Shown one piece after another: positions 1 through 11,882 of a stretch of DNA of 34,940 nucleotides. Position numbers and translations under genes: made by a program. The DNA is from Verrucomicrobiaceae bacterium. GTDB taxonomy: Bacteria > Verrucomicrobiota > Verrucomicrobiia > Verrucomicrobiales > Verrucomicrobiaceae. Numbering within the stretch: the stretch's first letter is position 1; the number at the start of each line of letters is the position of its first letter. The stretch lies in the NCBI GenBank assembly GCA_027487315.1, contig JAIYDW010000105.1, positions 1 through 34,940 of the forward strand, read 5' to 3'. The notes beneath the pieces were generated by a model that saw only the letters and a program-made list of their open reading frames with translations, searched no databases and was not told the DNA's origin.

Positions 1-53
1 CCGACACCGTCCTCCAATCCGTCCTAAACACCGTCCAAGCCCCCCGCACCTAA
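1..53 (+). CDS. 3' end of an unidentified gene (partial)
   Basis: Reading from base 3, the plus strand gives DTVLQSVLNTVQAPRT followed by a TAA stop at 51-53. The other two plus frames either stop early or read as arginine/proline-rich shadow. The strongly C-ending codons match the neighbouring real genes, so this is probably the C-terminus of a gene that begins upstream of the window. Sixteen residues are too few to assign a family. Confidence 0.4.
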   Translation, partial: DTVLQSVLNTVQAPRT

Positions 54-98
54 CCCCTCCTCCTCCTCGTCCTCGCCCCCCACATCCTCAGACCCCCA

Positions 99-131
99 AT
101 CCGCAATCCGAATTCCGCAATCCGCAATCCC
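99..131. repeat. Dispersed 'AATCCGC' intergenic repeat, copy 1
   Basis: A short run of near-identical 7-8 bp words (AATCCGCA, ATCCGAATTCCGCA, AATCCGCAATCC) ends two bases before the ATG at 133. The same words recur at 33046-33061 and 33124-33149, just upstream of purD. On the minus strand the run reads as an IADCGIRIADW-type peptide, which I take to be a spurious translation of the repeat rather than a gene. Confidence 0.6.
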
Positions 132-132
132 A

Positions 133-1287
133 ATGCCCTCCCCACCAACCAGCGTCACCGAGCTCGCCCAAGCCCTAGTCCGCATCCCCTCCGTCAACCC
201 CGACGGCGACCCCGGCACCGCCCCTGAAAACATCGGCGAAGCCGCCATCGCCGCCTACATCGCCACCTTCCTCCAATCCGCCGGCGCCACCACCTTCCTC
301 GAAGAAGTCCTCCCCGGCCGCCCCAACGTCATCGGCCACTTCCCCACCCTCCCCTCCCCCACCGGCCAGCCCAAACCCCGCCTCCTCTTCGCCCCCCACA
401 CCGACACCGTCTCCGTCGCCGGCATGACCATCCCCCCCTTCGGCGGCGACCTCCACGACGGCAAACTTTGGGGCCGCGGCGCCTCCGACACCAAAGGCCC
501 CATGGCCGCCATGCTCTGGGCCCTCTGGACCCTCCGCGATCAAATCCCCCACCTCCCCGTCGAAGTCCACTTCGTCGGCTTCATGTCCGAAGAATCCCAT
601 CAATACGGCTCCAAACACTTCGCCGCCCATCACCCCCGCTACGACCTCGCTCTCGTCGGAGAACCCACCGAAATGCGTGTCGTCCACACCCACAAAGGCT
701 GCCTCTGGATCGACGTTCACACCCACGGCCGCGCCGCCCACGGCGCCCGCCCCGAACTCGGAGAAAACGCCATCACCAAAATGGCCAAACTCATCCACGC
801 CCTCGACACCGACTTCCGCGACCTCCTCGCCGACCTCTCCGGCCCCTCCGAATACCTCACCCCCTCCACCATCAACCTCGGCATGATCGAAGGCGGCTCT
901 CGCTACAACATCGTCGCCGACCGCTGCACCCTCCGCCTCGACATCCGCGTCACCCCCGGTCTCGAAGCCCACGGCGGCGCCGAACACCTCCTCAAAGAAT
1001 TCATCCACCGCATCGACCCCACAGCCACCCTCAGCGACGCCCCACCCGTCCACGCCCTCGACACCGACCCTTCAAATCCCCTCATCCAATCCCTCCTCGC
1101 CACCGGCACCACCCTCACCGGCGCCCCCTGGTTTTGCGACGCCGTCTACCTCGCCGCCGCCGGCACCCCCGCCATCGCCATCGGCCCCGGCTCCATCGCC
1201 CAAGCCCACACCAAAGACGAACACATCAAAATCGAAGCCCTAGAATCCGGCACCGAATTCTTCCAAAAATACCTCACCTCCCTCTAA
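133..1287 (+). CDS. M20 family metallopeptidase (ArgE/DapE-type deacylase)
   Basis: A 384-residue cytoplasmic zinc-dependent amidohydrolase of the M20 family (acetylornithine deacetylase / succinyl-diaminopimelate desuccinylase / carboxypeptidase G2 group). The family metal and catalytic motifs appear in order: APHTDTV with H89 and D91; GRGASDTKGP with bridging D119; SEES with catalytic E153 and metal ligand E154; GEPTE with E177; and a late AHTKDEHI histidine. The lid/dimerisation domain lies between roughly residues 185 and 295, starting near GCLWIDVHTHGRAAH. The length is typical. The ATG at 133 is the only good start and sits directly after a dispersed repeat. The substrate cannot be read from the sequence, because ArgE, DapE and dipeptidase members share these motifs. 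No other arginine or lysine biosynthesis gene is adjacent, so a salvage role is as likely as a biosynthetic one. Confidence 0.9.
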   Translation: MPSPPTSVTELAQALVRIPSVNPDGDPGTAPENIGEAAIAAYIATFLQSAGATTFLEEVLPGRPNVIGHFPTLPSPTGQPKPRLLFAPHTDTVSVAGMTIPPFGGDLHDGKLWGRGASDTKGPMAAMLWALWTLRDQIPHLPVEVHFVGFMSEESHQYGSKHFAAHHPRYDLALVGEPTEMRVVHTHKGCLWIDVHTHGRAAHGARPELGENAITKMAKLIHALDTDFRDLLADLSGPSEYLTPSTINLGMIEGGSRYNIVADRCTLRLDIRVTPGLEAHGGAEHLLKEFIHRIDPTATLSDAPPVHALDTDPSNPLIQSLLATGTTLTGAPWFCDAVYLAAAGTPAIAIGPGSIAQAHTKDEHIKIEALESGTEFFQKYLTSL

Positions 1288-1300
1288 CCCCAAAAGTACC

Positions 1301-1317
1301 ACGCCTGTCCCAGGCGT
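1301..1317. other. Perfect 6-bp hairpin in the M20-ldh intergenic region
   Basis: The sequence ACGCCT-gtccc-AGGCGT forms a perfect 6-bp stem with a 5-base loop, 13 bases after the M20 stop codon. There is no following T-run, so it is a weak candidate for a rho-independent terminator. Just downstream, 1325-1351 carries two imperfect direct copies of a word like CATTCTGCTGCC. The rest of the 188-bp gap (1288-1475) is pyrimidine-rich and holds no gene that I can support. Confidence 0.45.
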
Positions 1318-1398
1318 CTCCCGCATTCTGCTGCCCCCATTCTGTTGCCATCTCTCACTCCCTCAACTCTCCCTCCTCCCCCCTCTGCGCCTCCCCCA

Positions 1399-1414
1399 CC
1401 TCCGCGCCTCTGCG
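1399..1414. repeat. Dispersed CCTCCGCGCCTCTGCG repeat, copy 1
   Basis: This 16-bp word is repeated exactly at 4430-4445, and C-rich sequence precedes both copies. Words of this kind (the complement of a CGCAGAGGCGCGGAGG motif) are familiar to me as dispersed intergenic sequence in many GC-rich environmental bacterial genomes. Here both copies lie between genes. Function unknown. Confidence 0.5.
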
Positions 1415-1475
1415 TGAAAAAATTCCCGTTAATCCCTTAGAAATCCCGTCAATCCTGTCCAAAATAAACGTCACC

Positions 1476-2600
1476 ATGCCCACCACCTACCGCGTCATCC
1501 CCGTCTCCGTTCACAACGACCTCGTCACCCGCGCCTACCTCCACCGCGGCTACACCGCCGCTGAAGCCACCGACGCCACCCGCTTCTGCGAGCTCGCCGC
1601 CGCCCACGGCATCCGCACCCACAACGTCATCAAAGCCCTCCACCTCGACCACCTCTTCGGCTCCGGCAACGGCGGCTGCGTCCCCGGTGCTGAGATCGAA
1701 GTCATCGGCAAATCCTTCGCCGCCTCCGAAGCCTGGGACTGCAAAAAGAAACTCGGTCAATCCGTCGCCTTCGCCGCCATGGACCGCTGCATCGAAATGG
1801 CCGACAAATACGGCATCGGTCAGGTCAGCGTCGACAACGCCTTCCACTACCTCTGGGGCGGCGGTTACGTCATGGACGCCGCCAAACGCGGTTACATCGC
1901 CTACACCAACTGCACCTCCACCCTCGCCGAGGTCGTCCCCTTCGGCGGCAAGTTCCCCGTCCTCGGCACCAACCCCCACTCCTGGGGCCTCCCCACCACC
2001 GACGCCATCGGCTACCCCATCGTCATCGACTGGGCCACCTCCACCGTCGCCATGGGCCGCGTCCAGCAGTTCCGCCGCGAAAACAAACAACTCCCCGAAG
2101 GCGCTGCTGTCGATGCCCAAGGCAAACCCACCACCGACCCCCACGCCGCCCAGTGGCTCCTCCCCTTCGGCGCCCACAAAGGCTACGGCTTGTCCCTCTT
2201 GATTGAAGTCTTCGGCGCCCTCATCGGCGGCTCCCTCCCCACCCTCCGCGGCGGCGGCGCCCACGCCGACGTCGTCGGCAAGCCCCTCGCCGATGGCGAA
2301 AAACGCACCTCCTCCTTCTACTTCCAGGTCATCCACCCCGACGCCATCAGCACCGGCCTCTTCGCCCAAAAGCGCAACCAAGCAGCCAACATCAAAGCCG
2401 TCTTGGATGACATCCTCCGCACCGGCAACGAAACCTGCCTCCTCCCCGGCCAACCCGAAGCCCAAAACGCCGAGCACACAAAGAAAGCCAACGGCCTCCT
2501 CTTCACCGAAGCCGAAATCAACGCCCTAAACGAAATCGCCGAAGAATGCGGCTCCCCCCTCATCGATGCCGCAGCCTTGCCGAGTTACGAAGTTCCCTAG
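1476..2600 (+). CDS. Ldh family oxidoreductase (malate/L-lactate/ureidoglycolate dehydrogenase type)
   Basis: A 374-residue cytoplasmic NAD(P)-dependent dehydrogenase of the Ldh_2 family (relatives: AllD, ComC, YbiC), which oxidises 2-hydroxyacids. This is a different fold from classical lactate dehydrogenase. Family landmarks: an AAAHGIRTH segment with H44 and R47; the VDNAFHYLWGGGY segment with a histidine near 124; the nucleotide-binding GTNPHS at about 164-169; and PFGAHKGYGLSLLIEVF with K235. The ATG at 1476 is chosen because the family N-terminus begins just after it. The frame stays open far upstream through the M20 gene, but that stretch is Arg/Pro-rich shadow. The exact hydroxyacid cannot be read from the sequence. 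Bases 2491-2543 of this gene, coding for GLLFTEAEINALNEIAEE, have a degenerate second copy at 3332-3384. Confidence 0.9.
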   Translation: MPTTYRVIPVSVHNDLVTRAYLHRGYTAAEATDATRFCELAAAHGIRTHNVIKALHLDHLFGSGNGGCVPGAEIEVIGKSFAASEAWDCKKKLGQSVAFAAMDRCIEMADKYGIGQVSVDNAFHYLWGGGYVMDAAKRGYIAYTNCTSTLAEVVPFGGKFPVLGTNPHSWGLPTTDAIGYPIVIDWATSTVAMGRVQQFRRENKQLPEGAAVDAQGKPTTDPHAAQWLLPFGAHKGYGLSLLIEVFGALIGGSLPTLRGGGAHADVVGKPLADGEKRTSSFYFQVIHPDAISTGLFAQKRNQAANIKAVLDDILRTGNETCLLPGQPEAQNAEHTKKANGLLFTEAEINALNEIAEECGSPLIDAAALPSYEVP

Positions 2601-2648
2601 TTGATATCAACACAGGTATGACTTGAAGCACTTCACCTTGTTTCCATC

Positions 2649-2897
2649 ATGCCAACCATCTTTCGCCATCACGGGTATCGGTTCTTCTTCTTCAGTCGTG
2701 AAGGAGAGGAACCCATCCATGTTCACATTGAAAGCGCCGAGAAATACGCCAAGTTCTGGCTCGAACCGCTTTCCGTTGCTGAATCCCACGGATATAGCCG
2801 CAGCGAACTGAAAGAGATCAGGCTATTGATCGAACAAAACGAAGAACTCATCAGAACCACTTGGAATGAGCACATCACTCGTCACCGCCAGAGTTAA
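2649..2897 (+). CDS. DUF4160 domain protein
   Basis: An 82-residue protein starting MPTIFRHHGYRFFFFSREGE, followed by PIHVHIE, a KFWLEP strand and a C-terminal helix with ELKEIRLLIEQNEELI and a tryptophan. This is the full DUF4160 pattern at normal length. The molecular function of the family is not established. It is known to sit next to DUF2442 genes, and that is the case here: the next gene starts inside it, with a 32-bp overlap in another frame. Small paired overlapping genes of this kind look like toxin-antitoxin modules, but I see no catalytic motif that would prove it. Codon use is less C-biased than in the flanking ldh gene, which suggests acquired DNA. Confidence 0.85.
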   Translation: MPTIFRHHGYRFFFFSREGEEPIHVHIESAEKYAKFWLEPLSVAESHGYSRSELKEIRLLIEQNEELIRTTWNEHITRHRQS

Positions 2898-3123
2898 GAC
2901 CGACGCCCGCGCCACCCATGTCGCAGTCGATGAGGATTCTCTCACTGTCACGCTCTCAGATGGCCGCACTGTCACGGCTCCGCTGGAATGGTTCCCCCGC
3001 CTTCGCGATGCCACCCCACAGCAGAAGCAAGAGTGGCGACTCATCGGACCCGGCATCGGCATTCACTGGGAAGCCATCGACGAAGACATCTCCGTCAAAA
3101 GCCTCCTCGCCTCAGACAACTAA
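2866..3123 (+). CDS. DUF2442 domain protein
   Basis: An 85-residue protein matching DUF2442: an N-terminal strand (ATHVAVDEDSLTVTLSDGRTV), the PLEWFPRLRDATPQQKQEWRLIG core, and IHWEAIDEDISVKSLL near the end. DUF2442 proteins are often partners of DUF4160 proteins. Some carry an extra DNA-binding domain, but this one is the short form without it. It overlaps the DUF4160 gene by 32 bp and lies 31 bp before the DUF2283 gene, so the three are probably one transcript. The start ATG at 2866 is the first in frame that gives the complete domain. Function unknown; a regulator or antitoxin-like role is inference from the gene arrangement only. Confidence 0.85.
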   Translation: MSTSLVTARVKTDARATHVAVDEDSLTVTLSDGRTVTAPLEWFPRLRDATPQQKQEWRLIGPGIGIHWEAIDEDISVKSLLASDN

Positions 3124-3154
3124 TCACTCAGCATCGGTCGGGAGCCTCCAAACC

Positions 3155-3325
3155 ATGAAGATCGGGTACTTCCCCGAAACCGACAGCCTCTACATCGAAC
3201 TCACCAACCGCCCCGGCGCGGACACCCGGGAAATCGAAGATGGCATTGTCCTAGACATCGACAAAGCCTCCAAACACCTCGATCTCCGCCATCTCCCCTT
3301 AACCGTCCAGCAATTCGGCTCATGA
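3155..3325 (+). CDS. DUF2283 domain protein, apparently with an internal deletion
   Basis: A 56-residue protein beginning MKIGYFPETDSLYIELTNRP and continuing with REIEDGIVLDID, the standard DUF2283 beginning. In the family as I remember it, a segment like DADGNLVGIDIDHASKxLDL follows. Here the text runs straight from VLD into IDKASKHLDLRHLPL, so about ten residues around the Asp-Gly-Leu-Val-Gly-Ile turn seem to be missing in frame. The protein may therefore be non-functional or a variant. The start ATG at 3155 follows a GGTCGGGAG stretch that may serve as a ribosome binding site. It is the third member of a small DUF4160-DUF2442-DUF2283 cluster. Its TGA overlaps an ATG at 3322 that opens the ldh 3'-end remnant. 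Confidence 0.75.
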   Translation: MKIGYFPETDSLYIELTNRPGADTREIEDGIVLDIDKASKHLDLRHLPLTVQQFGS

Positions 3326-3414
3326 TCCTCCACAGCCTCCTCTTTACCGACGCCAAAATCCCCGCCCTCAACGCGAAATCGCCAATTTACTTGAAACAAA
3401 ACGTCTGCCCCTGA
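3322..3414 (+). pseudogene. Degenerate duplicate of the ldh 3' end
   Basis: The stretch 3332-3384 aligns with 2491-2540 inside the Ldh gene: by eye about 43 of 50 positions match, with a two-base insertion near 3373. Translated in its own frame it reads MILHSLLFTDAKIPALN, against NGLLFTEAEINALNEI in the intact enzyme. After the frameshift it runs on to a TGA at 3412. It therefore looks like a decayed fragment of the C-terminal coding region of the dehydrogenase, displaced about 840 bp by the DUF trio. Whether the short frame is translated is doubtful. Confidence 0.65.
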
Positions 3415-3450
3415 ATTGCACGAATAACCTAGCGCATTCAGTCTCTAACA

Positions 3451-3783
3451 ATGAAGTCGTTGCTAATCAGTCTCCTCGCTTTGGCCACATGTTTCTTTGT
3501 ATGGCAACAAGTTTGGCGAGAAACGCTTTCGTCAACTAGCCTGAGTCCCGACGGCTCAATGAAAGTGGAAATCTACCGGGTTCCCTGGTGGAAGCTCAAA
3601 CCAGCCCCAGGAGCTTCGGGTGACGCTCCAGTAGTCGTGTATGTAAAAGGTAGCTCGGGACATGTTCGAGCTAAATGGTCAGATCTAATGGTTCAGAACG
3701 CTGGGCCAATTGAATGGTTTTCCGACCACGTTTCAGTTGGGCCAAAGATGTTCTTTTTTCACAGCCAGCCCAAACCCAAATGA
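3451..3783 (+). CDS. Small exported or membrane-anchored hypothetical protein
   Basis: A 110-residue protein with one N-terminal hydrophobic segment (MKSLLISLLALATCFFVWQQV, about residues 3-21). This could be an uncleaved membrane anchor or a signal peptide. A short soluble domain follows, with SLSPDGSMKVEIYRVPWW, VVVYVKG and a C-terminal strand region ending PKPK. I do not recognise the family. The SPDGSMKVEIY pattern resembles small periplasmic beta proteins of unknown role. Base composition and codon use are clearly more AT-rich than in the surrounding housekeeping genes, consistent with horizontal acquisition as part of the 2.6-4.4 kb island. The ATG at 3451 is the natural start because it is followed at once by the hydrophobic segment. 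Confidence 0.7.
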   Translation: MKSLLISLLALATCFFVWQQVWRETLSSTSLSPDGSMKVEIYRVPWWKLKPAPGASGDAPVVVYVKGSSGHVRAKWSDLMVQNAGPIEWFSDHVSVGPKMFFFHSQPKPK

Positions 3784-3989
3784 GCTTCCGACTTGCCTAT
3801 CATTCTGATAGAAGCTGCCGGCACCTGAATCGGTGACATCGCGGAAACGGGGCCAGGCTGCAACTTGCTAACAAATTCCTCCTTCCCTCTCCCTGAAACC
3901 CGACCCTCGAAGCACCCGTCACCGCCCCCAGAACCCTCGTTACCACACCCCTCCCCCCCAACCCCGCAGACCCCAGCGCCCCCCCCCAA
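3784..3989. other. Non-coding pyrimidine-rich spacer with a C tract
   Basis: No gene can be supported here. The stretch becomes increasingly pyrimidine-rich towards the repeat array and ends in a run of nine C residues (3979-3987) directly before the first 21-bp unit. Homopolymer runs of this length are prone to slippage. Confidence 0.6.
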
Positions 3990-4325
3990 AAACCGCTAGC
4001 GGTTTTCCGAAAACCCGTAGCCCTTTTCACCAAACCGCTAGCGATTCTCCCAAAACCCCTAGCGGTTTCTCCAAAACCCGTAGCCCTTTTCACCAAACCC
4101 CTAGCGGTTCTCCCAAAACCCCTAGCGGTTTTCCGAAAACCCGAAGCCCTTTTCACCAAACCGCTAGCGGTTCTCCCAAAACCCCTAGCGGTTTTCCGAA
4201 AACCCGAAGCCCTTTCCTCCAAACCGCAAGCGGTTCTCCCAAAAGCCCTAGCGGTTTCTTCAAAACCCGTAGCCCTTTCCACCAATCCGCTAGCAGTTCT
4301 CCCAAAACCCCTAGCGGTTTTTCCA
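3990..4325. repeat. Array of sixteen 21-bp tandem repeats with palindromic CTAG cores
   Basis: Sixteen consecutive units of exactly 21 bp cover 3990-4325 with no gaps. Three unit types alternate in strict order: type A (AAACCCGTAGCCCTTTTCACC without its last base), type B ending TTCTCCCA, and type C ending TTTTCCGA or a variant. This gives a 63-bp higher-order repeat in about 5.3 copies. Most B and C units carry a CTAG core inside an inverted repeat; the first unit is a perfect 18-bp palindrome (3989-4006, AAAACCGCT/AGCGGTTTT). Because 21 is divisible by three, all reading frames stay in phase and encode seven-residue periods, for example KPLAVLP on the plus strand and TARGFGR on the minus strand. 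I do not call these genes: no plus-strand start precedes the array, and every frame is similarly open by arithmetic. Degenerating copies continue to about 4350. Confidence 0.93.
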
Positions 4326-4458
4326 AAAATCCTTCAGATTCTCCTCCAGAATCTTCACGGTTCACCTCAGCAACCCGCCCATTCGCTAGACGAAATCGCC
4401 AATTCGTCAAAGCCCCTTCTAAGTCTCCCCCTCCGCGCCTCTGCGAACGGCACCACGT
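4326..4458. other. Spacer with a repeat word and a possible second ldh-like fragment
   Basis: This stretch holds decayed edges of the 21-bp array, then CTAGACGAAATCGCCAATT at 4386-4404. The first 15 bases of that word match the ldh gene (2526-2540) with one difference, and the last 14 match the ldh remnant at 3374-3387. The CCTCCGCGCCTCTGCG repeat (copy 2) follows at 4430-4445. No gene is supported. Confidence 0.4.
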
Positions 4459-5226
4459 TCAAGGAACCAGGAAGATATGCCCCGTGGCCGGGTCTCGAAC
4501 CTTCGTTCCGGGCGGAATGCCCCGAACATCCACCCTGTTTTCAGGAGTCTTCGCCGCGCCCGGCGGATACACAAGCCCGGGGCTCCCGGGAACCGGAAGG
4601 CCAAACGTAGGTCCCTTTGGCACTGGCGGTGCCGCAACCGGCGAAGCCTCCGCCACCTCCCCTGAAGGGCCGTCCGCAGAAGCGTCGCTCGCCACAGGAC
4701 TGCTAACAGCCGTGTCAGCATCCGGTGACGCCGTCTCAGGGTCACGTTTCTGAGTGACCCCGTTTGCCGAAGGCGAAACATCCTCCTTCTTTGAAGGCGG
4801 GGTTTGGGGTTCCCCCGCGTCAGATCCCGGAACATCCCCCGAGGGTCTCGGCGACTCCGAAGTCACAGGCGACCGCTCCTTGCTTGGACGCTTGCTCTCA
4901 CCCCGCATCGCAACATCGGGGTCCAGTTCGAGTTTGCCCGAATCACTGCGCCGAACGACATCGCTCTTTTCTTTGGGCGGACGCACCGCTGCAGGCTTCG
5001 GCGGCACACTGGGGTCCCGCTTTTCCTCATCATCGTTCCCCCCGATCTTTCGCGCCGTGCGCCCCACAAAATCACCCACCTTCTCGATTCGATCCACGAT
5101 TCGAGGAAGGGGATTCGGAATCCTCAGTCGAAAACGGCGTTCCTCGGCTTCAAGAGAGGTTCCCGGGCCAATCAAAAAGGCCCCGCAGACCAGCAGGCCC
5201 AAAGGTTTGACAGAGAGGTTTTTCAT
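4459..5226 (-). CDS. Secreted low-complexity protein with a conserved C-terminal motif
   Basis: A 255-residue protein with an N-terminal signal peptide (MKNLSVKPLGLLVCGAFLIG, cleavage probably near TSLEAEE). A basic/amphipathic stretch with RIPNPLPRIVDRIEKVGDFVGRTARKIGG split over two parts follows. Then comes a long Pro/Ser/Lys/Glu/Asp-rich disordered region, about residues 60-205. The end is compact: FGLPVPGSPGLVYPP, then VDVRGIPPGTKVRDP and GHIFLVP. That last module (aspartate-valine-x-glycine, PGTxVxDP, IFxVP) is one I associate with verrucomicrobial exported proteins of unknown role. The ATG at 5226 is chosen because the signal peptide begins there; the frame is open further upstream, but only from a TTG. 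Downstream in the same frame, just after the TGA, the 21-bp repeat region remains open. Confidence 0.7.
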   Translation of the reverse strand: MKNLSVKPLGLLVCGAFLIGPGTSLEAEERRFRLRIPNPLPRIVDRIEKVGDFVGRTARKIGGNDDEEKRDPSVPPKPAAVRPPKEKSDVVRRSDSGKLELDPDVAMRGESKRPSKERSPVTSESPRPSGDVPGSDAGEPQTPPSKKEDVSPSANGVTQKRDPETASPDADTAVSSPVASDASADGPSGEVAEASPVAAPPVPKGPTFGLPVPGSPGLVYPPGAAKTPENRVDVRGIPPGTKVRDPATGHIFLVP

Positions 5227-5426
5227 ATTCGAATGAGATGAATTTTGCCAGGACTGTCCCAGCTGAACATGCTGTGCGAAAGGCATTCTGTCCACTCTTA
5301 CAACAAGGTGCATCTCTAAACATCGGTTCGAGAACCGGCCCAACCCTACCCGCGCTGCATGCCCAGCAGCGGGCCTATCTCCGACTTTAGTCCTCCTCCA
5401 AAAGCCCGATACCCGATCCCACCCGG
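5227..5426. promoter_or_regulatory. Divergent intergenic region
   Basis: This 200-bp gap separates two divergent genes and must contain both promoters, but I see no convincing -35/-10 pair. It contains an imperfect hairpin near 5350-5374 (CCCGC-GCTG against CAGC-AGCGGG with one bulged base), which could be a regulatory structure. Confidence 0.35.
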
Positions 5427-6068
5427 ATGCCCCACCATGAGTTCGTCATGAACAAGCACGCCACATCAACGCATCCCTCATCCATCCCCCCAATGGCCAA
5501 ACCTCCTTCCGCCCTACCCAGCTTCAAATCCCTCTACTACATCGACTCCACCATCGGCCGAGCCGGATTCACCACACTCTTCGCATTGGTCGCCGCCGCC
5601 GGCTTCTACTGGGTCTCGCAACCCGTGAATGCCGTGGTCAAAGTCGAAAAGTCACCCCTCGAAGAATGGGTCATGCAGTGGGGACCCGCCGTCGCCTTGA
5701 GCGTGGCCGCCCTCGCCCTCCTCATCTTGGTGCGTCGCCACGCCTGGCTGAAAAACATCCTCACCCAAGGCACCCCCATCAAAGGCACCGTCGAGGACGT
5801 GACCATCTACGAGCGGGAAGCCCCCAGGAGCGAGAACTCACCCGCTTTCAAAACCACCAAAATCCGCACCTACTACACCGTCATCCGCTACGCCTGGAAG
5901 GGCATTGAGAACCAAGTGCGCTTCAAACTCCCCTTCAGCCCATCCACCTACCAAATCACCAAAGGCGGCGAAGTGGACATCCTCCTCCTCGAGTCCCACC
6001 CCAAAAAGCCAGTCATCCGCAAAGTCTATCTCGGCAGCATTGCCCCCAGAAGTCGCAGTTGGCTTTGA
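5427..6068 (+). CDS. DUF3592-like two-helix membrane protein
   Basis: A 213-residue protein of unknown function. Two hydrophobic segments are visible, about residues 46-65 (GFTTLFALVAAAGFYWV) and 85-105 (GPAVALSVAALALLILV). A C-terminal soluble beta domain follows, with a GTPIKGTVEDVTIY strand, TYYTVIRYAWKG, and a closing KGGEVDILLLESHPKKPVIRKVY. This arrangement resembles DUF3592 proteins, in which a soluble domain follows or sits between two membrane helices. Translation could start at 5427, at 5448 (MNKHATS) or at 5493 (MAKPPS). None has a clear ribosome binding site and the first 30 residues are unstructured, so the start is uncertain. It stands alone, divergent from the secreted protein gene and convergent with the tandem patatin gene. 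Confidence 0.65.
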   Translation: MPHHEFVMNKHATSTHPSSIPPMAKPPSALPSFKSLYYIDSTIGRAGFTTLFALVAAAGFYWVSQPVNAVVKVEKSPLEEWVMQWGPAVALSVAALALLILVRRHAWLKNILTQGTPIKGTVEDVTIYEREAPRSENSPAFKTTKIRTYYTVIRYAWKGIENQVRFKLPFSPSTYQITKGGEVDILLLESHPKKPVIRKVYLGSIAPRSRSWL

Positions 6069-6280
6069 TCAACATTTCGACGGCGCACCTGCCAAAGCAA
6101 GGTGCGACAACCCGTGAAAAAATGGCCTCGAATGCTCTCTCCAACCTTCTTCCAATCCAACCATGAACTCGTCATCATCCCTTTTACTTAGAGGCATTGG
6201 GTCTAACCCGATCCCCCATCCCGCTCATCACCCAATCTCCAAAGCCATCAAGAAACCAGACACGTTCACCGGCAATACCC

Positions 6281-9200
6281 TCACGCACCTCTCGCCACAT
6301 GATTGTGCCGTGCGCCGCAAGCGACATAAATCGTCTGAAGTTCTTCACTGACCTCATCCTTCTCCTCACAACTTGTGCTCTGGCTATGAAACGGGCAGAT
6401 CGGCCTCTTCCCTGTTGCCGGATCCACTCTTCGAAACCAGCAGAACCCCTGCTTTTGCTCCTCCTCCGACAGTTTCGCGGGACCAAATCCAAGAACACCG
6501 TCCGCTCCCGGATGAATTCGCTCAGGCAACTGCCCCAAGGCAATCCCTCTTTCCATCGCCCACCCCCTCAACGCCTCCACATCCACCGCATGGGCCTTGT
6601 TGTTCGCATCAAAGTGATCCGCCACAGCGCAAATCGTCGAGGCACAACCATGGGCAATGCTCTCGGCCTGCTTCTCTCGACTGAAACCCAGCATCGGATG
6701 AAACGCGAAAGTCCCGCAGAGCCACTTCGGCTTCACGGCCAACACATCCAAGTTAAGAGGAATATCAGCAGCCCGAACATCCGAATCACCCTCCTGCGTA
6801 CGCTGCTTTAGAATCCGTCGGATATCACGTTGCCCCCCCTGAAACTTATCGATCTTGCCATTGTAACGCAGTTGACCGGCACGCGCGCGAATTTCTGTCC
6901 AGCAAAGACGATCCAAATCAGCCCGCTTCGTCCAATCCGCCTTCTCAGGCTCTAACGTCGCCGTTAGAATGAGATGCGGCACGTCCGGACGGCGCTCATA
7001 ACGAGTCGCGGCATCCTTCCCCCAAAGGTAGTCAATCACCGCACCCAGCGGCAGGTTATCCATGATCCCCCCATCCGCATACTGCGCCACTTGCTGGGGA
7101 TGACGATACACCTCCCATGACCATCTCGGACGAAACACCATCGGAAAAGCGCTGCTTGCCAGCAAACCTTGCGTGAAACGCGGATCCCAAGGATGCGTGC
7201 TTCTGAGAATATCCAGCGTTCCCTGGGTCAAATTCGTGGTCGTTCCCATCAGCGGAAAATCAAAATGGTCAAACCTGCCACCCGAATTCGGCTTCCCATC
7301 AAACACGATGCCATCAATGAGTTGTTCCAGCGGTTCCGGTCCCAGCATCTCCAAACCAACGCCATAACGGTCCATCATTTCCTGGGTCAACGTTTTGATC
7401 CGCGCTGCCGCCCCGTCCCAGTTGCTCGCTCGCACCAACTGCGCCATCTCGAGAATCTCAAAAGGACTCAAACAGAAAAGCCTTTCCATCCCGGAAAAAA
7501 CACGCCTCGCCCGCCGGCTGAATGCCGTTGCCGAATCCTTTTCGTAACGCCGGAAAATCAAATCCAAATCATGCGGCGAAAAATCCGCATCCGCCGCGTG
7601 GATCGAGAAATGCCTGATGAAGTCCGCAAAACGGTCGGTCAGAACAAATCGATCGATCGTCAAGAACGTGGCCGCAAGTTGCCGTGTCTGACGCTGCCTT
7701 TCCACCAACTCATGTCCCGCTGGCTTCTGGAAAATCCGACCCGTCAACGCTCCAATGATCGTCCCCACCGAAGCACCGGCAATCACATCCGGATGAATCC
7801 CCAACTCGCTGACCGCATTCGCAAAACCCACCTGAAAGACACCTCGAAACACCCCGCCACTAAACAAAAAGACAACAGCCGGACCCTTCTTCTCTTCCAC
7901 TTTCGGAGGTTCTACCTTTTCAAATGCAGGACCACGGCGCGGCAACTTCACATGCTGTCGCAGCTCTCCTTCAGATACCCCGTCAACATCGGACTTCCCA
8001 GCACAGGCCATGCAACATCGACACACCTCAGATACCCCCGGCCCAGGCTCAGGGTTTCGAGCGGTCACAGGATCCCCTCCAGGAAGTGCCTTCAAATCCC
8101 CCCAGGCAGCCATCAATTTTCGACAGGAAACATACTCCGTCCCATCACGCCGTATGACTGTCTGTCCTGATGCCCTCAACTGACCAACCGCTTCCCTCAA
8201 TGTCGCCTTGTTCGACGGATCGCGATGCGGCCACTCGTCTGGCTCTTCCTCATCGGGTTCCAACATCAACTGCCTCTCTTCCAGAGTCCTTGTGTCAGGA
8301 AGAGCATCCGTTACCAGTCGTTCAATCATCGCCCGGCATCCGTCAGCAACCGCGGTGTCAATCAGTTCGCGCTGCTCGACGACAGATCCAGCCTTGGTCA
8401 TTCGCAGCGTCAATTGATGCGCCCGATCAGGTGCCACCAACCGAATCTTAGCAGGCACAAACGTCTGAGGCTCCTCTCGCCCTTCCGAAACCGTCACCGC
8501 TTTTCCGCCTAATGACCGACTCACCCGATCAATCAAACTCTTGTCGAGCAACATGTCTTGAAATCGCTGCAACTCACGCGCCCGCAATGCCACATCCACC
8601 AAGCCCGTGTAGGGCTCACTCTGCCCTTCCGGTTGCTCCTGCCTCAATGGCAATAGCGGCACCGAAACAATCCGCAAAGTATCCCATCGCGCCTCTGTTT
8701 GCTTGCCCAAAATCTTGCAGGCCTCCTCATACACCGGCACAATCGGATCATTTGAAACACTGATGCCATCAATAAAGGTCGACGTGATACCTTGTTTCTG
8801 AATGGACTGCGCTTTGTAAAAAGGCACGACTGCACAAGCGCACATGAGCGCATCAACAACCGATGTCTCTTGCGGTATCGCCTCAATTTTTCCATTGGCC
8901 AAATTCGCAGCCAGCGGCACCAACCTCACCCCACCCGCTTCATCCGAATCATCACGATAATCCGCCAGCACCTTCTTGTTCGCACTCCCTCCTTCAGTAG
9001 GCACTTCATGCTTCAACGCTCGCTGCACGCTATCATAGAATTTAAACTCGCCGTAGTAGCCCGGATCAAAATTCTGCACCAGCACCTCCATCAGCGCATA
9101 GGAATCTCCCAGATCATTGAAAATCTGATAATGCTTTAGAACATTGGTAAAGGTCGATTTCTGCTTCGATAACGAACGCCACGCGATCAGTGCCAATGCA

Positions 9201-10138
9201 GTCGCCATTCCTCCAATCACCAGCCCCCAAGCAATCAAAAGACAAATTGGCGGCAACTCAATCACTGAACAGCTAGACACTACTAGCAACAGAACCGCCG
9301 GCGAAAGGCTCAACAGAAGTGTCAGGGGCAATAGGCCCAGAAACAACCAAAGACAATGCTCCCAAATCCAGCGCAACCAACCCCAGCGATTGAAAATGAT
9401 GTGTCCGGCATCAACCCCCACCGCACGTGATCGACCATTGATCCCAAACAACTCACTAAGTTCGACTCGAGCAAGCAAACTCAAAGGCATGCTGAGAGAA
9501 AACAAATGGGTTGCAGCCAGCCACCAAAGCCGTGCCAGCAATCCACCACGATTGCCCCAGCGAACAACTGCGCTCTTTTCAGTGAAGGCATTCCAGCCCA
9601 ACAGAATCCTCATCAGTTGCGTGAAGACGCGCACACTGACCCGCAGTCGAATCAAATGATTGAACAACCGAATCAGGCCCGTTCGGCTTGCCACCGACTC
9701 CTCACGATGATCACGCTCCTCTTTGAAGTGCCGGGGCAATTCCACCGGCTTCAACGCAAACGCCGCATTCGTCTCAAGGGGATCCGGTAAGAAACCCTTC
9801 AACACTGTCGATGGCGCGTTTCGAAACGCTTCTAGCAATTCACTAAAGCGCGCTACCCGCACCTCTTCATCCTGCTTTGACGACCCTTCGCTACCTCCGG
9901 TTGCCCGCAGCACCTCTCCAAGCGCCGTCGCCGTAATGGCTCCAACCGAAATACCCGCCACCATCTCCGGTGCTCGACGTCGCGTCACCAGCATCGCATG
10001 CACAACCCCCATCTGCATGACGGTATCAAATCCAGCCCCAGGAAAGGAAAAAATCCGATAGGGTCGCTTCACTCCTCGTCCAGGATCGGATTCCGTTGAG
10101 GCAGAGGTCTGATCAGAGATAGGAGACTTCGTTTCCAT
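6281..10138 (-). CDS. Giant tandem patatin-like phospholipase with membrane segments
   Basis: A 1285-residue protein with two patatin domains. Domain 1 (about residues 28-465) has the nucleophile motif GISVG with S64 and a late DGI at 457-459, the position of the catalytic Asp. Its oxyanion loop reads GAGFDTVMQMG and lacks the usual arginine. It is interrupted by hydrophobic segments around 205-225, 262-290 and 297-320, so the protein is probably membrane-embedded. Domain 2 (about 753-1040) is canonical: GGVFRG at 761-766, GASVG with S790, and ADGGIMDNLPLG with D1022. Between them are an acidic linker and a cysteine cluster (CRCCMAC, about 706-712). The C-terminal tail holds further cysteines around FCWFRR and ICPFH. 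Patatins cleave acyl ester bonds of phospholipids through a Ser-Asp dyad. The gene lies 76 bp downstream of a lipoprotein hydrolase gene on the same strand and is probably co-transcribed. GGAAG lies about 8 bases before the ATG. Confidence 0.88.
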   Translation of the reverse strand: METKSPISDQTSASTESDPGRGVKRPYRIFSFPGAGFDTVMQMGVVHAMLVTRRRAPEMVAGISVGAITATALGEVLRATGGSEGSSKQDEEVRVARFSELLEAFRNAPSTVLKGFLPDPLETNAAFALKPVELPRHFKEERDHREESVASRTGLIRLFNHLIRLRVSVRVFTQLMRILLGWNAFTEKSAVVRWGNRGGLLARLWWLAATHLFSLSMPLSLLARVELSELFGINGRSRAVGVDAGHIIFNRWGWLRWIWEHCLWLFLGLLPLTLLLSLSPAVLLLVVSSCSVIELPPICLLIAWGLVIGGMATALALIAWRSLSKQKSTFTNVLKHYQIFNDLGDSYALMEVLVQNFDPGYYGEFKFYDSVQRALKHEVPTEGGSANKKVLADYRDDSDEAGGVRLVPLAANLANGKIEAIPQETSVVDALMCACAVVPFYKAQSIQKQGITSTFIDGISVSNDPIVPVYEEACKILGKQTEARWDTLRIVSVPLLPLRQEQPEGQSEPYTGLVDVALRARELQRFQDMLLDKSLIDRVSRSLGGKAVTVSEGREEPQTFVPAKIRLVAPDRAHQLTLRMTKAGSVVEQRELIDTAVADGCRAMIERLVTDALPDTRTLEERQLMLEPDEEEPDEWPHRDPSNKATLREAVGQLRASGQTVIRRDGTEYVSCRKLMAAWGDLKALPGGDPVTARNPEPGPGVSEVCRCCMACAGKSDVDGVSEGELRQHVKLPRRGPAFEKVEPPKVEEKKGPAVVFLFSGGVFRGVFQVGFANAVSELGIHPDVIAGASVGTIIGALTGRIFQKPAGHELVERQRQTRQLAATFLTIDRFVLTDRFADFIRHFSIHAADADFSPHDLDLIFRRYEKDSATAFSRRARRVFSGMERLFCLSPFEILEMAQLVRASNWDGAAARIKTLTQEMMDRYGVGLEMLGPEPLEQLIDGIVFDGKPNSGGRFDHFDFPLMGTTTNLTQGTLDILRSTHPWDPRFTQGLLASSAFPMVFRPRWSWEVYRHPQQVAQYADGGIMDNLPLGAVIDYLWGKDAATRYERRPDVPHLILTATLEPEKADWTKRADLDRLCWTEIRARAGQLRYNGKIDKFQGGQRDIRRILKQRTQEGDSDVRAADIPLNLDVLAVKPKWLCGTFAFHPMLGFSREKQAESIAHGCASTICAVADHFDANNKAHAVDVEALRGWAMERGIALGQLPERIHPGADGVLGFGPAKLSEEEQKQGFCWFRRVDPATGKRPICPFHSQSTSCEEKDEVSEELQTIYVACGARHNHVARGA

Positions 10139-10155
10139 GGGGGATACTTCCGCAA

Positions 10156-10176
10156 GGGTAGACCTACACTCTACCC
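10156..10176 (-). promoter_or_regulatory. Perfect hairpin just upstream of the tandem patatin start
   Basis: GGGTAGA and TCTACCC form a perfect 7-bp stem around a 7-base loop. It lies in the 76-bp gap between the lipoprotein hydrolase stop and the patatin ATG, ending 17 bases before that ATG. No T-run follows, so it may act on mRNA processing or translation of the second gene rather than as a terminator. The regulatory role is inference. Confidence 0.45.
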
Positions 10177-10214
10177 CCCTTCCCTCACTTCATGCAAACT
10201 CGAAAACCTCCTCG

Positions 10215-11882
10215 TTACAAACTGCCAGAAGCTTTGCCGAGGTGCTTGAGCAAGATTCGCCTTACTTCCGCAATGGCCGCAGGATGCTGGTGAGACCAGT
10301 GACCCGTCGGCACGATCACTTCGCTCTCCGCCCCGTCAAGGTGACTGCTCCAATACGGCACTATGCCATCCGTGCTAACGGGCTTGGTTCGATCAAGATT
10401 CCCCCCTTTGCCCCGATCTCCTATAATCGAATGATAAGGCACGCCTTTCACCGGCGGCAGTTTGTCCATAGTCGTCACAAATCGATTGTTCGGCTTGAGC
10501 GCATCAATGCTGTTCGGCATGCGCTTGAGTTGTCCGCCTGATTCACTGGGCTTGCTCAAACTCACCGCATCCATCGCATAACTCGGATCCCCCAGACTGT
10601 CTCCCGTGTTAGCAATGATCCGGCTTCCCAACTTTCCCAAAAAATGCTCAGCCAAATCCGCTCCTCGATGTGATGCCGACGCATAAATCACTCGGGCAAC
10701 CTCTGGCCGATGTTTGAAAATCAACGCACTCACAATCGCCTTCTTGGCATCCGCTGGCAACGCAATCTCATCCGGCGGCAAATCATAGTATTGATCCCAA
10801 AGCTTCATCCCGCTGTCAGTGATCAACTCCCTCGCGATCATGCCTCCCATGCTGTGCCCGATGACCACCATCCGTTTGTGGTCCGGATAAAAGGCCCGAA
10901 TGGCATCCAACTTACTCCTCAACACCGCCGCCATCAAGGGATAGGCATATCCAGTCGGATAACTGAAGAACCAGATTTGGTAGTTCTGGCGAATCGTCGC
11001 ATCCCCACGCAAAGCCTCAATCATCGGCACCCAGGTTGCTTGAGAATCACCGAGACCATGAATGCAGAGAATCGGAATCTTTTTCGGATCGTACGGCTGC
11101 AACCTGGCCAAACGCGCATTCTCAGCAAAAGCACCCGGCCGAAGAAAGCTCGCAATTTCTGATTTTCTTGGCTTCAGCTCCGCCAGTTGCAAGCCTGTTG
11201 GTGCCGTAAAGTCCGCCGCAACCGGGAACGTATGCCCTCCAAACTTCACCGTTTCGGTCGCAAGCGGATCCATGTAGGCCGCCGTGCATGACCTCCCCTT
11301 GAAAAACAACACCTCGGTCACCCCATAATAAACAGCAGGCCCCTGGATGAACGGATCAAATCGAGTTGGATCAAACCCCTTGCTGGCGATAACCATCGGA
11401 GCACCCAATCCGTCCTTCATCGTTCGCTCCTTCACCAGTCTTCCCCGAAACTGGTAGCGATCCGCCGGCAAAATCCGGAAGTGCGAAGGATCGTGCTCCG
11501 GCTTGCCATCATGGGTCATGCTAAAACTCCAGCCCCCCCCAACCCCGGGGCAAATCACAGGCGCCTTCCAGGGCTGCAGTTTTGACTCGTGCAGAACTTC
11601 AAACAGGCGCCCCACAGCAAAGTTGTAGTCCTTCCTCGCCTGGTCATCTTGCGGATTCTTCTCCAAAACGGCCCCGGCAGTGGCTGCCGCATCAATGTAA
11701 TGCCCCATCTGGGCGCGATAGTCTTTGGAAGGATGCCTTAGCCCTTCGACAATCATCTCCCCTGCCGGCGTCTCTGCATCATAGCTCGGCCTCCGCTCCC
11801 TGACTTTCGCGTAGTTCTTACAACCCGATGCTACAAGCACCAACCCGAGAAAGAAGGCGCGAATCAGAATAGGCGTTTTCAT
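10215..11882 (-). CDS. Lipoprotein alpha/beta-hydrolase (lipase/esterase-like)
   Basis: A 555-residue predicted lipoprotein: MKTPILIRAFFLGLVLVASG is followed by C21 in a VASGC lipobox, so the mature protein should be lipid-anchored outside the cytoplasm. The first 260 residues are a family-unknown region with predicted helices and beta strands. An alpha/beta-hydrolase domain then begins at ILCIHGLGDSQATW (oxyanion HG at 275-276), with the nucleophile elbow GHSMGG (S344). Late histidines in VPTGHWSHQH (528-533) offer the catalytic His. The layout resembles PGAP1/triacylglycerol lipase-like serine hydrolases; the substrate is unknown. It is upstream of, and co-oriented with, the tandem patatin gene, which suggests joint action on envelope lipids or acylated proteins. 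A trailing hairpin at 10156-10176 separates the two. Confidence 0.85.
   Translation of the reverse strand: MKTPILIRAFFLGLVLVASGCKNYAKVRERRPSYDAETPAGEMIVEGLRHPSKDYRAQMGHYIDAAATAGAVLEKNPQDDQARKDYNFAVGRLFEVLHESKLQPWKAPVICPGVGGGWSFSMTHDGKPEHDPSHFRILPADRYQFRGRLVKERTMKDGLGAPMVIASKGFDPTRFDPFIQGPAVYYGVTEVLFFKGRSCTAAYMDPLATETVKFGGHTFPVAADFTAPTGLQLAELKPRKSEIASFLRPGAFAENARLARLQPYDPKKIPILCIHGLGDSQATWVPMIEALRGDATIRQNYQIWFFSYPTGYAYPLMAAVLRSKLDAIRAFYPDHKRMVVIGHSMGGMIARELITDSGMKLWDQYYDLPPDEIALPADAKKAIVSALIFKHRPEVARVIYASASHRGADLAEHFLGKLGSRIIANTGDSLGDPSYAMDAVSLSKPSESGGQLKRMPNSIDALKPNNRFVTTMDKLPPVKGVPYHSIIGDRGKGGNLDRTKPVSTDGIVPYWSSHLDGAESEVIVPTGHWSHQHPAAIAEVRRILLKHLGKASGSL

Follow-up and report, generated by a model that had tools for sequence, protein, structure and literature searches.

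The iterons of plasmids such as R6K, pSC101 and F are direct repeats of about 17-22 bp, set in phase with the DNA helix, specific to their replicon and bound by a protein as dimer or monomer. The multi-site operators of XRE/Cro/CI-type regulators, on the other hand, consist of two to four palindromic sites placed two helical turns apart. Repeats of other kinds have been described as dispersed elements of bacterial chromosomes. BrickBuilt, a minisatellite/MITE of Porphyromonas gingivalis, forms dispersed intergenic arrays of 23-nt units with conserved and variable positions, which differ in copy number between strains and are often found next to surface-protein genes; its copies share one unit, a leader, a tail and terminal inverted repeats (PMC4596501). 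GTAG-tagged REP elements, also known in Verrucomicrobia (Opitutus terrae), are dispersed short palindromes that form stem-loops, alone or in pairs, carry a GTAG tail and are tied to RAYT transposases (PMC3733652).

The window analysed here is a stretch of 34,940 nucleotides that makes up the whole of contig C208 in the 5.87-Mb, 256-contig draft assembly of a Verrucomicrobiaceae bacterium (genome G000), and it holds a 21-bp array belonging to a class that resembles several of these systems. Like the plasmid iterons, the repeats are in helix phase, with a period that is exactly 21 bp over 16 units in the window and 21-22 bp in the class; unlike them, the arrays lie on chromosomal contigs with no Rep gene nearby, their units are dyad-symmetric and ordered into 42- or 63-bp patterns, and they stand upstream of an FN3-type gene or as orphans. 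With the XRE/Cro/CI operators they share the two-turn spacing and dyad-symmetric sites (symmetry in the window array is above that of its column-shuffled versions at p about 0.003, the lowest value that the test can give), whereas the number of sites is 6-28 per locus instead of 2-4, the copy number changes rapidly and binding is predicted. Five of the arrays have an XRE-type HTH gene, a candidate cognate regulator, beside them. The arrays are dispersed, intergenic, of roughly two-turn unit, variable in copy number and often close to probable surface-protein genes, as in BrickBuilt, but their units differ from locus to locus. They resemble the GTAG REP elements as dispersed short palindromes and differ from them in being gapless head-to-tail 21-bp units, those of the window having a CTAG centre. 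Partly palindromic repeats in a regular array also recall CRISPR, from which the window array is set apart by having no spacers and no cas genes among the window ORFs examined. No description of the class was found in the papers searched on 21-bp repeats, iterons, minisatellites and Verrucomicrobia.

The window array and its surroundings

TRF describes one and the same tract (Table 1) either as 16.2 copies of 21 bp (score 309) or as 5.4 copies of 63 bp (90% matches, score 543), in agreement with the sixteen units in a 63-bp three-unit pattern that a sequence-only reading of this DNA had proposed. The units are contiguous and every one of them is 21 bp long. Units three or six places apart have an identity of 0.90, against 0.69-0.70 at lags 1, 2, 4, 5 and 7, which bears out the proposed A-B-C order. 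Slicing of the units also gave the CTAG count of that reading, 10 of 16, and the supposed rarity of this tetranucleotide holds in the window, where 20 copies lie outside the array and base composition predicts about 113 (about five-fold depleted). Unit 1 is the perfect palindrome claimed. The description of the units in general as palindromic stands only in part: the dyads are above the shuffled level, but palindromy is partial, with a mean of 6.1 of 9 pairs and 3-5 of 9 in the B units. It had further been stated that all frames encode seven-residue periods; three of the six frames run through the array without stops, whereas the others contain 13 (+ frame 3), 11 (- frame 1) and 3 (- frame 3).

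Table 1. Features in and around the window array (positions in the window).
Feature	Positions	Strand	Basis
Array of sixteen 21-bp units, consensus AAAACCCCTAGCGGTTTTCCC, 63-bp A-B-C higher-order repeat	3989-4328		TRF, unit slicing, lag-3 identity 0.90
Unit 1, perfect 18-bp palindrome AAAACCGCTAGCGGTTTT	3989-4006		9/9 complementary pairs
Degenerate end of the array on its 3' side (2 copies, period about 22)	4322-4368		Permissive TRF
ORF of 110 aa without a match in Pfam or NCBIfam; about 206 bp separate its end from the array	3451-3783	+	ORF list, profile searches
ORF of 294 aa without a Pfam match, running towards the array (convergent)	4459-5343	-	ORF list, profile search
Array-holding segment of about 1.23 kb, missing at the syntenic site of congener G007	3134-4361		blastn of window 1-8000 against G007:C36; junction sequences

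The array is found among chromosomal genes (SecA, MutL, PBP, tRNA-Phe). No sigma-70-like promoter was found near it and no HTH gene beside it in the window, and the window ORFs scanned with Pfam included neither a replication initiator gene nor a transposase. The syntenic region of G007 is 89-97% identical, and the stretch 4362-6033, just beyond the missing segment, is kept there at 89%. In the window this segment is edged by CTCAGCA direct repeats; as the motif bounds the segment and G007 has one copy of it, the difference may be due to either an insertion or a deletion, and the copies may represent either a duplication or deletion microhomology. Adjoining the segment, at 2649-3325, are toxin-antitoxin-like genes (DUF4160, DUF2442, DUF2283) whose order differs from that in G007. 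Tandem repeats of seven nucleotides (CAATCCG / TCCGCAA and others), in up to 29 copies, occur at 97-134 and on many other contigs of the genome, and they constitute a class separate from the 21-bp arrays.

Arrays upstream of an FN3-type gene family

A search for the window unit revealed a second array in the same genome, on contig C147, and none in any other genome of the 68 in the family. The C147 array also has 16 units, with a 42-bp higher-order period, and it occupies the region 70-400 bp upstream of a 242-aa gene, ending 70-75 bp before the gene start. The protein encoded (model pLDDT 86) has no Pfam family; it consists of a helical N-terminal part with an N-terminal W-D motif and a C-terminal FN3 domain, recognised by profile and fold. 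Fold searches matched only this FN3 domain, to FN3 domains of phage tails and receptors, and returned no function for the helical part. The gene 3' of it carries collagen-like GXY repeats. In both CTAG arrays AA (positions 2-3), C6, AGC (10-12) and TT (15-16) are invariant, positions 7, 8, 13 and 14 toggle almost only between C and G, and variation is about 0.11 per column in the dyad core (positions 2-16) and 0.27 in the spacer. Compared with the core, columns of the spacer are 2.4-3 times more variable. The best reading of the window copy is that of an orphan relative of the C147 array, without the FN3-type gene. Vsr activity is known to deplete DNA of CTAG. Upstream of the C147 array, ORFs resembling a cytosine-5 methyltransferase and a Vsr endonuclease are found, and the array is rich in CTAG despite the latter.

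Homologs of the FN3-type gene were fetched from the 68 family genomes, and the 900 bp upstream of each start were tested for the best lag. This lag was 21, 42, 22 or 43 in 20 of 32 upstream regions at a match of at least 0.60 and in 23 of 32 at 0.55 or more, in a gene set drawn from one family's relatives and with the starts of divergent homologs set by motif or profile edge. The usual period was 21, with 22, 43 or 44 as rare variants. Random 900-bp windows from two genomes reached 0.60 in about 10 of 1169 cases (about 0.9%, 7-bp repeats set aside), so that arrays are about 70 times more frequent upstream of this gene family than in the background. Two of these ten windows are themselves gene-linked (L183 and L326), the gene at L326 being a distant family member (13.7 bits) followed by a collagen-like gene. 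Among homologs found by HMM outside the first set, 5 of 12 have an array upstream, including one from another family of the class (G080); some members of the gene family have no upstream array at all. Unit sequences are unrelated between most loci, while period and dyad symmetry are kept. A third array of different sequence (array 3, contig C164) precedes a homolog that is 47% identical to the C147 gene.

Array 3, its FN3-type gene and an apparent antitoxin and PIN-toxin pair occupy 3.19 kb (L183, 14079-17267) that are missing in congener G006, and the site is an insertion hotspot since G007 has different content there. At another locus of the same genome (L252, contig C139), a module of array, FN3-type gene and collagen-like gene is directly preceded by a tyrosine integrase that resembles integron integrases and is located between 2.0 and 1.0 kb ahead of the FN3-type gene.

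Random stretches amounting to about 1.1 Mb were also examined, and every high-identity non-coding array with a unit of at least 12 bp in them had a period of 21/42/63 or 44 bp. Scanning the phylum for TAGC at 21-bp steps returned mostly 7-bp repeats, together with the arrays of genomes G002 and G330, the latter next to a protein that is unique among 338 genomes. The CTAG pattern gave 86 stretches in named genomes, mostly scattered single matches in cyanobacteria and Bacteroidota.

Genes with HTH_3/HTH_31 domains above the Pfam cut-off accompany five independent gene-linked loci (L208/L213, L209, L223, L228 and L254), in each case on the strand of the FN3-type gene and within about 1.5 kb upstream; at most array loci, no HTH gene adjoins the array. 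With leave-one-out profiles, four of the five loci were found again, and 497 kb of control sequence gave nothing comparable; the profiles missed L228 and also a 140-aa HTH-like protein at C147, which scores under every Pfam cut-off and is considered a candidate only. An upstream ORF at L238, HTH-like by eye, has no Pfam HTH match and was left out of the count.

Orphan arrays and copy-number turnover

The relation between the C147 and window arrays has a parallel in genome G002, where the gene-linked array on contig C49 has its unit in common with two orphan arrays on contig C4. These shared units indicate that arrays also occur as orphans, at a distance from the gene. In G002 orphans are frequent; a sampled half megabase has about one array per 80 kb. 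One 21-bp array of 21.7 copies (L305, 395-849, contig C10) lies downstream of an HPF-like (ribosome hibernation) gene, with no FN3-type gene on the part of the contig seen. Near another orphan (L145, contig C58) there is a 159-bp tandem repeat (10069-10529 and 10558-11046) with GTAG and GGCGCTTGG...CCAAGCGCC hairpins and an adjoining ORF for a Y1-type (RAYT-like) transposase, which is probably a REP/RAYT system.

At the orthologous loci L208 and L213, from two species, about 15 and 2.6 units are present between flanks that are 85-90% identical, as counted in draft assemblies of short-read type, in which array copy numbers may be misstated. The core GCCGCATCCGA is common to both loci and the spacer has changed, the period still being 21 bp. 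Judged from such comparisons, the arrays gain and lose copies fast.

Explanations for the arrays and a proposed role

Column variation in 29 arrays has no codon (mod-3) periodicity (Fisher p = 0.53), and among mismatched dyad pairs G.T (126) and A.C (113) are about equal; the dyads therefore look like DNA-level sites. The sequence-only reading had offered a coding minisatellite as its alternative, in which 21 bp would be seven codons of a coiled-coil heptad. Most arrays do have open frames on one or both strands, with heptad-like peptides such as FGRTASGLVKRATG, but the missing mod-3 signal, the stops in all six frames of array 3, the periods of 22, 43 and 44 bp and a best + frame without start codon at the window array refute this as a general explanation and leave it very improbable. 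Transcription of the array into serial hairpins (as a terminator, a 5' UTR or an array of small RNAs) would explain the much stronger folding of both strands relative to shuffled sequence (z about -8 to -12), a property to be expected of any palindromic repeat; this reading is improbable, given that neither strand prefers wobble, that the window-array mismatches are mostly of C.C and G.G type, and that the array contains no terminator-like site and has no Rfam match above the gathering score. Slightly better placed, and still unlikely, is a sequence-independent DNA structure, whereby phased small bends would create a curved or stiff segment or a nucleoid-protein site upstream of promoters. The two-turn period, kept as the sequence changes, and the existence of 22- and 44-bp variants agree with it, whereas dyad symmetry is not predicted by it and several arrays (L208, L211 and L216) have no A-tracts.

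Dyad symmetry exceeds that of column-shuffled units in 17 of 32 arrays (p < 0.05; Fisher combined p about 5e-17), under a null that permutes columns without keeping dinucleotides and in a set whose members are not all independent, as window/C147 and L211/L317b are pairs of common origin; the dyad falls short of significance in about half of the set. This enrichment weighs against the strongest rival, a selfish or neutral minisatellite travelling with a mobile gene module, in which slippage or recombination and local amplification would build the arrays, the 21-bp period would derive from their manufacture and the gene link from hitch-hiking. Such an origin has a minority chance: copies turn over fast, arrays are species-restricted, orphans are many and some have duplicated flanks (L317), the gene region of array 3 lies inside the insertion relative to G006, and higher-order repeats of 42 and 63 bp are what local amplification typically produces. 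It does not lead one to expect a period that is almost only 21-22 bp though units differ, the recurrent position upstream of one gene family or a spacer more variable than the core. Absence from relatives together with random copy order had been named as the mark of a neutral satellite; the window array is absent in G007, the sole relative with the syntenic site, but its copy order is non-random, as are the position and period of the class.

The reading preferred here, with a probability of roughly 0.55, is that the arrays are tandem dimer-binding sites two helical turns apart, similar to iterons or operators and unstable in copy number. The iteron-type array for cooperative dimer binding of the sequence-only reading is thus the best-supported one, on the grounds of the two-turn period, the dyads, the position beside one gene family and the five HTH loci, the binding protein itself being putative. 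Dyads on one face of the helix would allow a dimeric protein to assemble cooperatively, as on plasmid iterons or a multi-site operator, a row of dyads exactly two turns apart being what such loading calls for. Each array's own unit would presumably be matched by its own regulator, for which the XRE/Cro-type HTH genes adjoining some arrays are candidates. Gene-linked arrays probably control transcription of the gene for a helical bundle and FN3 domain, which can precede a collagen-like gene, and the window orphan would be bound in trans by the protein of the C147 array (a candidate regulator). Blocks of two or three units would be duplicated locally, shifting the copy number and producing the 42- and 63-bp patterns. 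The presence of orphans near unrelated genes (HPF, quinone oxidoreductase, the convergent genes of the window) argues against a single regulatory role.

A broader proposal, more speculative and on balance doubtful, is that Verrucomicrobiota have a new kind of regulatory module. Arrays of dimer sites, fixed in period and diverse in sequence, would each co-evolve with an XRE-type regulator of their own and would control mobile helical-FN3 and collagen-like (probably surface) genes; copy number would act as a dial for tuning or phase variation, and orphans as trans-titration sites. The class keeps its spacing and not its letters, which is unusual for repeats and indicates that helix geometry and dyads are what is kept. 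The class also accounts for an intergenic repeat that recurs in genomes such as G002. Should every array have a regulator to itself, these loci would form a natural set of evolving pairs of protein and DNA site, and the change in copy number may serve as a dial for surface-gene expression.
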